This document shows, piece by piece, positions 36,775-42,172 of a stretch of 64,000 nucleotides of DNA. Below the pieces are notes generated by a model that saw nothing but the letters and a program-made list of their open reading frames with translations, was not told where the DNA came from and searched no databases. Both the position numbers and the translations under genes were made by a program. This DNA comes from Stenocarpella maydis. Taxonomy: Eukaryota; Ascomycota; Sordariomycetes; Diaporthales; Diaporthaceae. Numbering within the stretch: the stretch's first letter is position 1; each line of letters starts with the position of its first letter. The stretch is taken from assembly GCA_002270565.1 (NCBI GenBank), contig NQMI01000029.1, positions 156,521 to 220,520 on the forward strand, read 5' to 3'.

Positions 36775-37919
36775 TGGCCCTAACTCAGGCGGCGGGACTG
36801 CAACATGGGCATCAAAGATTCGCGCTCAAAGTCTGGGGATTCGGAGTTTTGCCTGGCTGGGAAAGGGTGGGCTGTCTTCTGTGGGAGGGCACTGGCTGCA
36901 TTTCGATTCATGAGGCGTACGGACGAGTATGAAAGGGAAATACCAAGGAGGACGGAAGCCGACTGTAAATAGATTATCTCCGCGGTGGCCGCCTGACGCG
37001 CCTGTGACGGCGGTCGGCGGCACAGGTGGTTGTGGTGATGGTGGGTGTGAGGACGAGGTATATCTCTTCCTATCCATTTCACCAGGTCATCCACCCACCC
37101 ACCCGCTCCGGGTTTTGCCACGAGGTGGCTTTTCGCGTAGAGATTGCATTGTAATTCTACCATATACCATACATGATATAGACCTGAGAGACCACGGCAG
37201 GCGATGATGATCGACATAAGTTGTTTTGATTTGGCCGTGCTATGAACACACAGTCGATTAGCCAAATCGACGAGCCCCTCTGCTGCCCCTGAGTATGCCT
37301 GCCCATCGCGAGCCCACAGGCGGGTCCGTGGGCGGGTGGGCTCCTCGATGGTTTGTGCACGCCCTTTTTCTCAGCATCATTGGTGAAACTAATGGAGGGG
37401 CCACCTATTCATGCAAAGCAAGCTGGGGGGCTACTCTTGGGGGGGGGGGTTGCTGCCACGCCATACGTACTGTTACAGTCAGTCACATGGGACGCAGTGT
37501 AGGAGAGCGAGCGACTGGAGGAGTGACTGGAGCAGAGATAGCCGCTCAGCTTGCTTGGTATTATTAGTGTACGGATACTGTAGTGTAGTCTGTCTGCCCG
37601 CCGAAACCATCTATACCTCGTACTGTACATGTGTACCTTTAACCTACCTTGGACCTGCCCACCATTTCCCAATACCCAAAAGGCGAACGACCCCTTTCCT
37701 CTCCCAACTACTTACCTGGATCTGAACCACACCCCATCATACCAGCTGCTGCTGCACAGCTTCTTTTTCTCTTTTCCCCTCCTCCTCCTCGAGAGATTTC
37801 ACCCTTCTTGTTCTTGTTGTTGTCTTATCTCTTTCATACCTAGACCTACGCAACCCCACCTACCCCTACCTTCCCCCAAACGCCGAGAACCGTCGAGACC
37901 CCCCACCTACGAGCACCCA
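36775..37919. other. Intergenic, upstream of coronin
   Basis: Holds the 3' region of the remodeller gene and the coronin promoter. It has a 10-G run near 37440-37449 and a C/T-rich leader from about 37650 to the start codon, without ATG. No coding frame is seen. Confidence 0.55.
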
Positions 37920-40900
37920 ATGTCTGGCCGTTTCGTGCGCGCGTCGAAGTATCGTGAGTCTCGAGCAGCCCCTCCCTGGTCGCGTGCGCAAGCAGGCGTG
38001 GCTCAAGCTCCCATCGACCCGCTCCGCGTCGCCTCTGCACCGCATGGGCGCTTTGTGGCCTCGTTGCTGACGTCGCTGCGCTTTGCTGCAAAACAGGACA
38101 CGTCTTCGGCAAGCCGACCCGGAAGGAATACTGCTACGACAACCTCCGCATCAGCAGGAACGCTTGGGATACGAACCTCCTCAAAGCTAGTAGCCTATTT
38201 CCTTGAGTTTTCGATCCATAACATCGTTTTCTGCCCCCCCAAAAAGCCCCCCAAAAAGCCCCCAAGAAAACCCCCGTTCGAATCAAGCAAGAAATGTCCA
38301 AAACCATCGCGACAAGACCTCTCCAGTACCATTTTCGCGCGCGGCGCGTCCAGAGCAGATAAAGGCGGACGTCATTGCCTTAGTGCGTACACGCACAGGC
38401 AACAAGAAGATCGCGAGCGTCGTAGTTGGCGACTTTCTGTTTGGTGTTGACGGCAATCCCGTGCTCTGCCTGGACGTCTCACCCGTTCAGCAAGGCCCAA
38501 TGGTCAAGGTCACCTAACAACGAGTTTGGAAGCCTTCACAAAACGAGCTTCAGCTGCGCCCGAAACCACCCAATTCCCCTCAAGATCGTCGGTTCTCCAA
38601 TTGTCCGTCAACGAGGCAGGAAGATCACTTGGCTCTCGCGATGCGACAAGCAAGAGGTCGTCCGTGAAGCTGCGAGCCTCGAGCATATCAACGTCCTGGA
38701 GGATCTAGGCTAGAAGCTCTACAGAGCGCTGGCGGAGAGCAAGTTCGAACTTCCAACCTTGGACGACGTCCAATCCTACGTCGATTCTGTACTGAACGCC
38801 CACTTCAATTACGGCGCACACATGGAGCACAGCCTTGACATTGACGACGCCTTCTGAAGTCTGCCCGGCGTCGTCCCACGTTCCGAGCCTGAGGGCTTCT
38901 GCTCTGAGCTCCGCGACGTCGTCACGGGCTGGCATTTCGCCCTGCTTGGCGAAGCTTCTGAGGATCAAGAAAGCGAGGACGTTCCATTCAACGAGCAAGA
39001 ATTTGGGAGTCAGACGACGGCCGAGGGATCTTTCCACGAGTCTCTGGCGTCGGTGGATGATCCATCAGGAGACTCCCAAGGCACCACGACTTTATTTGCA
39101 TCCACCACTACCTCGGAATTCGGCGAAAACCTAGATCCCGACATCTTGAGAAGATTCGCCCGCTTCAAGGAAGAGCTGGACGCCCGAGCCTGTCCTTGCG
39201 CCGGCTTCCAACAGGTCTCGAGGACAATGCGATCCGAGAACGAGGCTAATATCCTCATCGACGTTCTCCGAGGGCCTCACTACCATATCGTCGACCCATG
39301 GATCATGAGACAAGGCGATGGCTTCCCAATGACCGGCGCCCAATTCTCTCAATTCTCTCAACTGTGCACCAAGATGGCGTATGAAAGATTTCTCAAGATC
39401 GTCCGCGGACCTCTCGTCGTTGAGGCTGTCTAGAATCCCTCGGCGTTGCCCGTTCACCCCTACTTCCTTGGGGCGTGGCCTGGTGACGGTAGCAAAAGTG
39501 GTCTCATGATCACTTCGTCGGACGTCGAAGCCAAGGTATGGCTCCAGAACTATGTCGCCGAGCTGAACGCCAAACGCCCGCCTGGAAAATGCCCTGTGAA
39601 GCTGGTCGAATCTCTCAGCCACCAAACCGGAAGCGTTGCTTACGTCCCGAAGGAGGACAAATACATCACCCGTACCAAAGATCATTATTGGTATTCCATC
39701 ATACAGAACGTCTCTCATCCTAGTGAGATAGATATGGACGCCTGTTCGTCGTGGTCTCAGAGACCTCGGGCTCCTCGGCGACAAAAGTGGCGGAATTCCT
39801 GACGTCTGCATGAACGCCAGTTTAGAGGAGCGCCTTCAGGTGATCGCGTGGATGATTGACACGGATGATTACTACGATCTCGCCGCGAACCAGTACGTCT
39901 TCCTGCAAGCCGGAGAAGAGCATCGTCAGATGGTTTACGATCTGAGGGAGCTCGTGACGCGCTGTGGGATCGAGTGCACCGTGGTCTCTCAGTTCTGGTC
40001 GGGCGTTTACGGAAACTTCCTCTACCGCGTCAGTTTCAGCGATAAAGTGGCTGAACAGCTTCAACGTTACCTCCTCCTACAGCGCAAGAAAATGGACATG
40101 TCATGGACGTTCTACGACCGCGATGGACATTTTATTACGGTTTCGGACGTCGTCCATGGGTCATACAGGCAGATACAGGTCTCGGGGCGCCAGTATCAGC
40201 TTGAAACCGCCTCCTCATCTCACAGTAATGGCGACAAGCGTCGCCCTGTATTATTATTTGTAAACACCAACATTTGCTAACTGTGGTGACGATACAGGTC
40301 AACCCCGAATATCTCTCGGTCAATTGGGAATCTGGTGGCGGTGGCGCATTTGCGGTTATTCCCCTGAACGAGAAGGGGAAGATACCTGAAGTGCTACCCC
40401 TCTTTCGCGGACACACGGCTGTTGTATTGGATACCGACTGGCACCCTTTCAACGACCGTATCATTGCATCCGGCTCCGACGATGGCAAGATCTTCATATG
40501 GGAGGTCCCCAAGGACTTCACTCTCTTCACCGACGCGGAGGAGCCCGCAGATGTCAGCCCAGTAAGCAAGCTGGCCGGACATTCAAGGTACGTCGCGAAA
40601 CGACGGTGGCTACAAAGAGAGGAGAATGCCGCGTCAAACATATCTGACAATCGCACAGGAAGGTCGGCCAGGTCCTTTTCAACCCCGCCGCCGAGAACAT
40701 CCTCGCCTCGGCATCCGGTGACTTCAGCATCAAGCTGTGGGACGTCACCACCGGCCAGTCCCCGCTGTCGCTGAAGCACAACGACATCGTCCAATCCCTG
40801 TCATGGAACGCCTCTGGAAACATGCTGGTCACGACCTCGAGAGACAAGAAGCTGCGCGTGTGGGATGTACGCCAGGAGAAGCCGGCACATGTAGGGCCTG

Positions 40901-42172
40901 GTCACGAGGGCGCCAAGAACAGCCGTGCTGTGTGGATGGGCGAGCACAACCGTATCGCGACGACGGGTTTCTCCCGGATGAGCGACAGGCAGCTAGCGCT
41001 GTGGGAGCCCGGTAGCGACAAGCCCATTGGTGGCTTCAACAACCTGGACTCCATCTCTGGTGTCTGCATGCCTTTCTGGGATGACAGCACCAACTGTCTG
41101 TACCTTGCCGGCAAGGGGTGAGTTTGACTGCTTCCGGACAGAACCCGACCGGCTTGGCTAATCTTCGGTTCTCAAGCGACGGTAACATTCGATACTTCGA
41201 GTACGAGAACGACAAGTTCGAGTTCCTTTCCGAGTACAAGTCAGGCGAGCCGCAACGAGGCATCGGCTTCATGCCTAAGCGCGGTGTTAACGTATGTTGA
41301 GCCGGCCACAAATACACCAACACAGCAGTGTGCTAACCGGATCGTAGCTTCACGAGAACGAGGTCATGCGGGCCTACAAGACTGTCAACGACATCTACAT
41401 TGAGCCGATCTCCTTCACCGTCCCTCGTCGCGCCGAGACCTTCCAAGGCGACATCTTCCCGCCATGTACAGGATCCAAGCCAGCCATGTCCGCCTCGGAG
41501 TGGCTTTCTGGCAAGACCGCACTCCCACCAAAGATCGACCTCGAGAGCAAGTACGACGGAAACGCTCCCGTTGAGGTCGCCGCCGACTACAAGCCGCCCG
41601 TGGCTGCGCCCGCGCCCACTCCTGCCCCGGCTGCCAAGCCTGCGCCGAAGCCTGAGCCCGAGCCGGTCACTCGTGCCGCACCGCCCTCTATGGCCCAGCA
41701 GAAGGGATCCATGGCCGCCGCGGCATCCAAGTTCCAGGACGACGAGGACGACAAGGATGATGACGCCGAGACGTCGAGTTTCGAGGAGGTGCAGAAGCCA
41801 GTATCAAGGGCTGCCCTGCCGGTCCGCTCAGAGCCCAAGCCGCAGGCCCAAGAGGAGACCAAGGCCCCGTCGCCCCTGAAGCCCACGGCAGCCTCGTCCT
41901 CGGTGCGTAGCCCGCAGCCGTCGCCGTCGCTGCCGCAGTCAGGAGCCGGGTCGGGCCACGTGGAGGCGTCGCTGGAGCAGATCAAGCAGCTGATCGAGGC
42001 GCAGACCAAGATCATCACGGCGCAGGGAGAGAAGCTCAGCGCGCAGGGCGAGGCCATGGCGCACCTGACGGGCGAGGTAGAGATGCTCAAGAAGAAGGTC
42101 GTATCCGGGTCGCAGGACCAGAACGAGAGGATCAGGCAACTGGAGCTAGAGCTCGAGGAGGCGCGGTCGTGA
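37920..42172 (+). CDS. Coronin, actin-binding WD40 protein
   Basis: Exons 37920-37953, 38097-38185, 40298-40587, 40659-41117, 41177-41291 and 41348-42172 join to 603 residues. The N-terminus MSGRFVRASKYRHVFGKP is the coronin signature, followed by CYDNLRISRNAWDT and, after the long intron, VNPEYLSVNWESGGGGAFAV. WD40 blades include SGSDDGKIFIWEV and TTSRDKKLRVWDV; GFSRMSDRQLALWEP and RAYKTVNDIYIEPISFTVPR are coronin-specific. A Pro/Ala/Glu-rich acidic linker leads to a C-terminal coiled coil (about 560-603) for oligomerisation and Arp2/3 contact. Coronin bundles actin and regulates Arp2/3 at endocytic patches. Five introns keep phase. Intron 2 is 2112 bases and opens with GCTAGT rather than GT; it holds an intein relic. 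If the donor fails, the protein would stop seven codons after Lys41. Confidence 0.9.
38186..40297 (+). other. Giant coronin intron 2 with atypical donor
   Basis: The coronin frame breaks after codon AAA at 38183-38185 and resumes at GTC 40298, both phase 0. The 3' end is standard (TGCTAAC branch site near 40275, GATACAG acceptor). The 5' end reads AAA/GCTAGT: a GC-type donor with G at +5, weak at +3. The other coronin introns are 56-143 bases. Between the ends lies the intein-like element. A C/A-rich repeat (CCCCCCCAAAAAG units) occupies about 38237-38280. Confidence 0.7.
38333..40230 (+). pseudogene. Degenerate intein: Hint domain plus LAGLIDADG homing endonuclease
   Basis: Read along three frames, the element has an intein's order. 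Hint N block: VVVGDFLFGVDGNPV (from about 38420), GPMVKVT, then after a +1 shift near 38513, FGSLHKTSFSCARNHPIPLK, matching intein block B (T/S-x-N-H-P). A linker follows, then the endonuclease: PYFLGAWPGDGSKSG (39464-39508) as LAGLIDADG motif 1, and after a second shift (about 39740-39770) LGLLGDKSGGIPDV and VIAWMIDTDDYYDL (39840-39881) as motif 2. Hint C block: YRQIQVSGRQYQLE then SHSN (to about 40230), like the intein ending ...HN. Stops interrupt it at 38711, 38855 and 39431. Functional inteins splice themselves out of a host protein while the endonuclease spreads them; this copy is dead and lies in a spliceosomal intron. The 5' edge is uncertain (38.23-38.34 kb). Confidence 0.75.

Follow-up and report, generated by a model that had tools for sequence, protein, structure and literature searches.

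Inteins are selfish, self-splicing protein elements that are normally confined to coding sequence, and that require a Cys, Ser or Thr at the +1 position. The nuclear hosts that appear in the rows drawn on from a 2018 survey of eukaryotes are PRP8, VMA1, RNA polymerase, ThrRS, GLT, CHS and eIF5B; coronin is not in those rows (PMC5784728). The relation between the GLT and CHS inteins is described there as among the most puzzling in the intein network (Green and colleagues, PMC5784728). In the section of Goodwin and colleagues drawn on here, ectopic movement is judged a probably very rare event, since a cut made off-target has no homology on its flanks to use (PMC1635734). The nearest published case that we found of intein-derived endonucleases without exteins is that of the yeast WHO elements; the portion of the WHO study used here reports pseudogenes and off-target insertions among these elements and, in a small Kazachstania clade, an intron of FBA1 located where WHO is inferred to cut (PMC7282813).

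The coronin locus described here touches on an open question: how inteins reach new sites. The window (i.e., the whole stretch of 64,000 nucleotides that was analysed) carries a broken intein inside the second intron of a coronin gene. The relic had first been placed at 38333..40230; that place was right, and its bounds are now refined to 38362–40229. The features of the locus are as follows.

37920–37953, + strand: coronin exon 1 (MSGRFVRASKY..; splice model and translation; DUF1899)
38097–38185, + strand: coronin exon 2, ending ..AWDTNLLK in phase 0 (splice model)
38186–40297, + strand: coronin intron 2, 2,112 nt, GC-AG, phase 0 (splice model; site common to 12 relatives)
38186–38361, + strand: intron sequence 5' of the relic; no Pfam match, stop-free in the relic frame from 38194
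38362–40229, + strand: intein relic, full length and colinear with GLT1-type inteins (homology to relatives; leave-out profile)
38362–38517, + strand: relic frame 1, with the Hint_N blocks but no Cys1, and a TAA stop in frame at 38515
38522–39721, + strand: relic frame 2, past the first frameshift, with block B (CARNH), the middle region and helix 1 (LGAWPGDG); stops TAG 38711, TGA 38855 and TAG 39431
39735–40229, + strand: relic frame 3, past the second frameshift, with helix 2 (IAWMIDTDD), Hint_C and an HSN end, then a Gly codon
38194–38514, 38426–38710, 38714–38854, 38858–39430, 39434–39799 and 39732–40277, + strand: six stop-to-stop pieces that match the intein profile
40230–40297, + strand: intron sequence 3' of the relic, a tail with branch site and acceptor
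40298–40587, + strand: coronin exon 3, starting VNPEYLSVNW (splice model)
40659–41117, + strand: coronin exon 4, WD40 (splice model; Pfam)

Like the fungal GLT1/CHS2 inteins, the relic consists of Hint_N, a long middle region, two LAGLIDADG helices and Hint_C in colinear order; however, the known inteins of this family lie in-frame in coding sequence, while the relic is disrupted and intronic. With the WHO and HO elements of yeasts it shares an intein origin and a position outside any spliced host protein. It differs from them in three respects: (i) WHO/HO elements carry a zinc finger and lack motif G, whereas remnants of motif G are kept in the relic, (ii) they lie beside a host gene and not inside it, whereas the relic is within a spliceosomal intron, and (iii) HO groups with the VMA1 inteins in the network of PMC5784728, as represented in the part used, whereas the relic belongs to the GLT1/CHS2 family. 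No C-terminal zinc finger of the WHO/HO type was matched by Pfam in the six relic pieces at E ≤1, and the relic ends 68 nt before the exon. The intein pseudogene Arth_1007 of Arthrobacter FB24 is likewise dead and without a real host protein; as described in the excerpt drawn on, it is bacterial and sits in a gene with only 66 extein residues, outside any intron (PMC3196547), whereas the relic lies in an intron. Finally, group I and group II introns also have LAGLIDADG endonuclease genes lodged in them, but the intron here is spliceosomal, Hint blocks are present, and there is no ribozyme match: an Rfam search of 37800–40700 returned no group I or II ribozyme at E ≤1; its single match, to a family of a different kind, scored below the gathering threshold and is put down to chance.

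Identification of the relic began from a list of intein-type blocks, said by the earlier note to stand in the right order, and every quoted block was located, in that order and on the + strand, when all frames were read. The Hint_N block GDFLFGVDG is in piece 38194–38514, block B (ARNHPIPL) in 38426–38710, and the first LAGLIDADG helix (FLGAWPGDGS) in 39434–39799; the second helix (VIAWMIDTD) and the C-terminal block (VSGRQYQLE...SHSN) are both in 39732–40277. A profile was built from 14 relatives, without the relic, and searched against the 1,330 stop-to-stop pieces of the window that are at least 30 aa long. At E ≤10 its only matches are the six consecutive relic pieces, with E-values of 2.7e-50, 5.7e-25, 4.2e-24, 3.8e-11, 6.9e-11 and 1.3e-4; in 20 mononucleotide shuffles of the intron, the top score with this profile was 2.5 bits. 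The relic read-through matches P0001, a 637-aa metagenome protein, with an E-value of 2.7e-100 and 37% identity over 99%, and it shares 30–37% identity over 592–597 columns with ten full-length rows of the GLT1/CHS2 family. Used as a query of its own genome, the intact intein GLT1-a finds the relic in three frames (8.4e-43, 6.2e-22 and 1.35e-3); the query in this search and in the Pfam search, L006:3979–5889, was one codon off (Lys to His), while the exact GLT1-a intein was used in the scripted analyses. The homology runs full length and colinear from Hint_N through the endonuclease to Hint_C, and confirms, at the level of sequence comparison, that 38362–40229 is a full-length, colinear, degenerate intein of the GLT1/CHS2 family.

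The suggested search with Hint and LAGLIDADG profiles had a split outcome: the 14-relative profile matches all six pieces, but the Pfam Hint and LAGLIDADG models match none of them, the one Pfam match (DUF7140, E 0.16) being due to chance. As the six pieces contain no intein-type Pfam family, the assignment rests on the relatives. A PDB sequence search with the last relic piece alone likewise returned no intein, and two chance matches (E 1.2). The relative GLT1-a exceeds the Pfam Hom_end cut-off, and the endonuclease of the family is of the PI-SceI type, as seen from Hom_end in GLT1-a, from a match to PI-SceI by a profile that contained the relic's own read-through, and from the fold of P0001, the model being of this relative rather than of the relic and having low confidence in its Hint parts.

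Around the relic, coronin exons 1–4 read intact. In the spliced coronin model, DUF1899, which is the N-terminal domain of the coronin matches, is matched over all 66 positions across the exon 2–3 junction; no coronin residue is missing there, and the +1 residue is Val. The intron has a GC donor (AAA|GCTAGT), a branch site (CTAAC, 40277–40281) and an acceptor (TACAG|GTC), and with these signals and its conserved position 38186–40297 reads as a spliceosomal intron. The phase-0 exon ends, the branch site and the acceptor described in the earlier note all stand; the donor is GC rather than GT. Together, the leave-out profile, the read-through match and the spliced model bear out the main claim of the earlier note, that an intein relic lies in a spliceosomal intron of coronin. 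At title and abstract level, the literature searched, which took in few subscription journals, contained no account of such a location for an intein. Two further observations were made in the same intron. Firstly, the GC donor (38186–38191) is weak in consensus, whereas introns 1, 3 and 4 start with GT; the 2.1-kb intron may be poorly spliced. Secondly, a 12-nt tandem repeat (3.4 copies of CCCCCCAAAAAG) occupies 38235–38275, 5' of the relic.

The relic is made up of three frame segments, with 617 codons, two frameshifts and four stops (38515, 38711, 38855 and 39431). Cys1 aligns to Ala, position 2 (Leu2) to a gap, and the preceding residue is Lys: the N-terminal nucleophile is absent. The TxxH of block B is broken by T68A (CARNH), the His being kept, and the C-terminal HSN is followed by GGC (Gly) where an intact intein has HN and then Cys, Ser or Thr. 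Neither is there an open frame in frame with the host, the relic frames being unlike those of both exons. With its reading frame shifted twice and stopped four times, Cys1 gone and a Gly at +1, the relic is unable to splice; judged by these lesions, it is a non-working intein pseudogene. Both LAGLIDADG helices are present with their aspartates (GDG and DTDD), and carry the changes L386P, G504W and G510D, which probably damage the endonuclease helices.

How much of this divergence arose after function was lost can be estimated from the stops. Four stops in 617 codons correspond to ~0.065 neutral substitutions per site (95% 0.018–0.168), while the relic's end branch in the family tree measures 2.27 changes per column; when neutral decay of the intact GLT1-a was simulated down to 42% identity, the 60 runs averaged 17.1 stops, and none had fewer than 8. 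GC content by codon position across the three relic frames (0.593/0.404/0.653) resembles that of GLT1 coding DNA. The coding-like GC pattern and the small stop-based estimate relative to the branch indicate that most of the divergence accumulated under constraint, and that decay is the recent part. Residue loss gives a higher figure, ~0.147 substitutions per site, at which four or fewer stops were seen in 11 of 100 simulated runs; the two estimates are thus in mild tension.

The history of the intron itself was followed in coronin relatives, a comparison that had been called for and that was based on protein fragments, often predictions made on unspliced DNA (120 classified among 276 matches). 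The exon 2–3 junction is reached by 67 of the 120 listed matches. An intron at the same site and in the same phase (K|V), without an intein, is present in 12 of these: P0133 and P0138 read it through in full (72 and 75 nt), while in the ten others unrelated sequence runs straight into V or A after Gln (i.e., a CAG acceptor that has been read). Exons 2 and 3 are contiguous in 43 of the 67; exon 1 is also joined in 18 of those 43, which marks them as spliced models or transcripts, and the remaining 25 include genes truly without the K|V intron. A further nine begin at or beside the Lys and are ambiguous, including P0083, the closest among the matches listed, and three are uninformative. These strict classes replaced looser ones (44 contiguous, 41 starting after the junction, one gap, 34 without information). 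The intein-free intron of 12 relatives indicates that the intron predates the insert; the K|V intron is, from these fragments, older than the relic, though not universal.

We consider it likely that a complete GLT1/CHS2-family intein was copied into this pre-existing phase-0 coronin intron, and that it then decayed. Of the two routes put forward in the earlier note, ectopic insertion into an intron is the one favoured by the finding of the intron without an intein in 12 relatives. The events would have been as follows. A complete intein, with Hint and endonuclease domains both still under constraint on arrival, would have entered the intron; removal of the intron at the RNA level would have made protein splicing unnecessary and kept the cost to the host low; and with selection lifted from both domains, substitutions, four stops and two frameshifts would have accumulated evenly. 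The insertion itself was probably a double-strand-break repair event that took up intein DNA in the absence of extein homology, the break perhaps having been cut off-target by the intein's own endonuclease. Endonuclease-driven insertion is plausible, but the similarity of the relic flanks to the two GLT1 homing sites does not exceed that of shuffled sequences. No significant target-site duplication is evident in the ends of the relic, where an 8-nt near-repeat agrees at 7/8 bases, a degree of similarity reached by 293 of 3,000 random pairs.

An alternative that we regard as improbable is that the intein first turned into an endonuclease gene housed within the coronin intron, was kept there by homing while the intron took care of removal, and then died. 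Such an element would be an intein crossed with an intron-encoded endonuclease, or would live much as the yeast WHO elements do. Extein-free endonucleases of intein origin have indeed been published (WHO/HO, in the portion used of PMC7282813), the family member P0010 looks nearly extein-less, and both helix aspartates persist in the relic. However, faster decay of Hint than of endonuclease was sought in the relic and was not seen: 22/31 invariant residues are kept in Hint, 40/55 in the endonuclease and 2/2 in the middle region (Fisher p 1.0 for Hint versus endonuclease), in a sample small enough for a modest Hint–endonuclease difference to go undetected. The invariant columns were taken from 13 relatives, with Lipomyces left out, and under three alignments the counts were 21/31 or 22/31 for Hint and 40/55 for the endonuclease. 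By the same test, ten full-length relatives keep 22/22 to 22/24 in Hint_N, 9/9 or 9/10 in Hint_C and 55/55 to 55/61 in the endonuclease; in the three partial rows, 50–54 out of 55–59 endonuclease residues survive (gaps scored as losses), and P0010 keeps 27/31 and 51/55 for Hint and endonuclease. Also against an intron-dwelling homing gene are the lack of a Met in the relic frame from 38194 to the Hint block, the failure to find a zinc finger with Pfam in the six pieces, and copy number: the proposed search for alleles elsewhere in the genome was run, and it turned up the relic only once in the assembly. Even loss in the two domains fits their joint release from selection, as on landing in an intron; the pattern is as if a working intein had landed there and then decayed neutrally. 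Similarly doubtful, in our view, is the combined reading that inteins can integrate without homology into non-coding DNA, with spliceosomal introns as a refuge, and that the coronin relic homed there for a while; if true, the intron-resident intein would be a third lifestyle between inteins and intron-encoded endonucleases, with RNA splicing replacing protein splicing.

Copying of a complete intein into the intron is compatible with a variant to which we give little weight: that the insert was part of another intein-bearing gene, and that the extra intron DNA is decayed extein. Without the relic, intron 2 measures 244 nt, whereas two relatives have only 72 and 75 nt there, and by this difference extra DNA may have entered along with the relic; the relic frame is, moreover, stop-free from 38194 to the Hint block. 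On the other side, the flanks are unlike either GLT1 site, the 5' piece has no Pfam match, and 41 nt of the 5' flank consist of the 12-nt tandem repeat.

The second route of the earlier note, in which coronin once had an in-frame intein and the site that housed it afterwards turned into an intron, is very unlikely. The position of the relic between two phase-0 exon ends would suit it, but 12 of the 67 junction-reaching relatives have an ordinary intron exactly at K|V, and both the Val at +1 and the absence of any lost coronin residue argue against a former in-frame intein; the relic is, besides, read in other frames than the two exons, a weak argument given its indels. An assembly artefact, with an intein-bearing contig misjoined into coronin, is scarcely credible: the relic sequence occurs once in the assembly, a point in favour of a misjoin, but the lack of a second copy also speaks against one. 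On the 399,534-base contig, moreover, neither half of coronin is damaged, the end of the intron keeps its branch site and acceptor, and two joins would be needed, both inside the intron.

The coronin relic, then, looks like the fossil of a jump to the wrong site: a whole intein in a place where, on present evidence, protein splicing was never possible. As such, it is physical evidence that conserved coding sites and extein homology can both be dispensed with when intein DNA lands, and both an empty site and a donor can be searched for in sister strains.

The genome that holds the relic also has two intact members of the family, both in GLT1, and an intein in PRP8. In the family tree, GLT1-b, the copy at the GLT1-a site (P0007), the copy in a Sel1-repeat protein and the CHS2 copies form one clade (support 100/100), in agreement with the GLT/CHS similarity noted in the part of PMC5784728 used here. 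The GLT1/CHS2 intein family is, as far as these sequences tell, one that changes sites. The relic lies outside the GLT1-b/CHS2 clade and has no supported sister; constraining it to group with the six GLT1-a rows gives a p-AU of 0.125, and with its own genome's GLT1-a plus P0003 a p-AU of 0.19; a GLT1-a grouping has no support in the tree and is not rejected by the test. Viral and prokaryotic collections yielded 118 and 43 relatives (80 and 43 kept), with best-segment identities to the family query of 23–35% and 25–32%; at these levels, there is no close donor among them.

Several members of the family have features of their own. The +1 residue is Cys wherever the end is readable, and Ser in P0010. 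P0007 is a GLT1-b-type intein at the GLT1-a site (MRK|C...HN|CHLNTC), an arrangement that suggests site switching. P0009 is a family intein in a Sel1-repeat protein, which we take to be perhaps a chitin synthase regulator. This host is outside the rows drawn on from the survey in PMC5784728. P0010, from Lipomyces chichibuensis, begins MNPSQG with Gly in place of Cys1, ends VVHNS and has almost no exteins; it may be a derivative that stands alone, or else the product of a truncated gene model. In the genome of the relic, GLT1-a and GLT1-b are intact and occupy two sites of one glutamate synthase gene (L006:3982–5892, and ~416–2474 of L007 on contig C291). The coding sequence of GLT1-b is itself split by a 106-nt GT-AG spliceosomal intron (L007:933–1038, bounds set by eye), the removal of which keeps the frame. 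The PRP8 intein, at L001 on contig C111, has a 1,073-aa open frame with Hom_end_hint above its cut-off, and is adjoined by the U5-snRNA-binding domain of PRP8.
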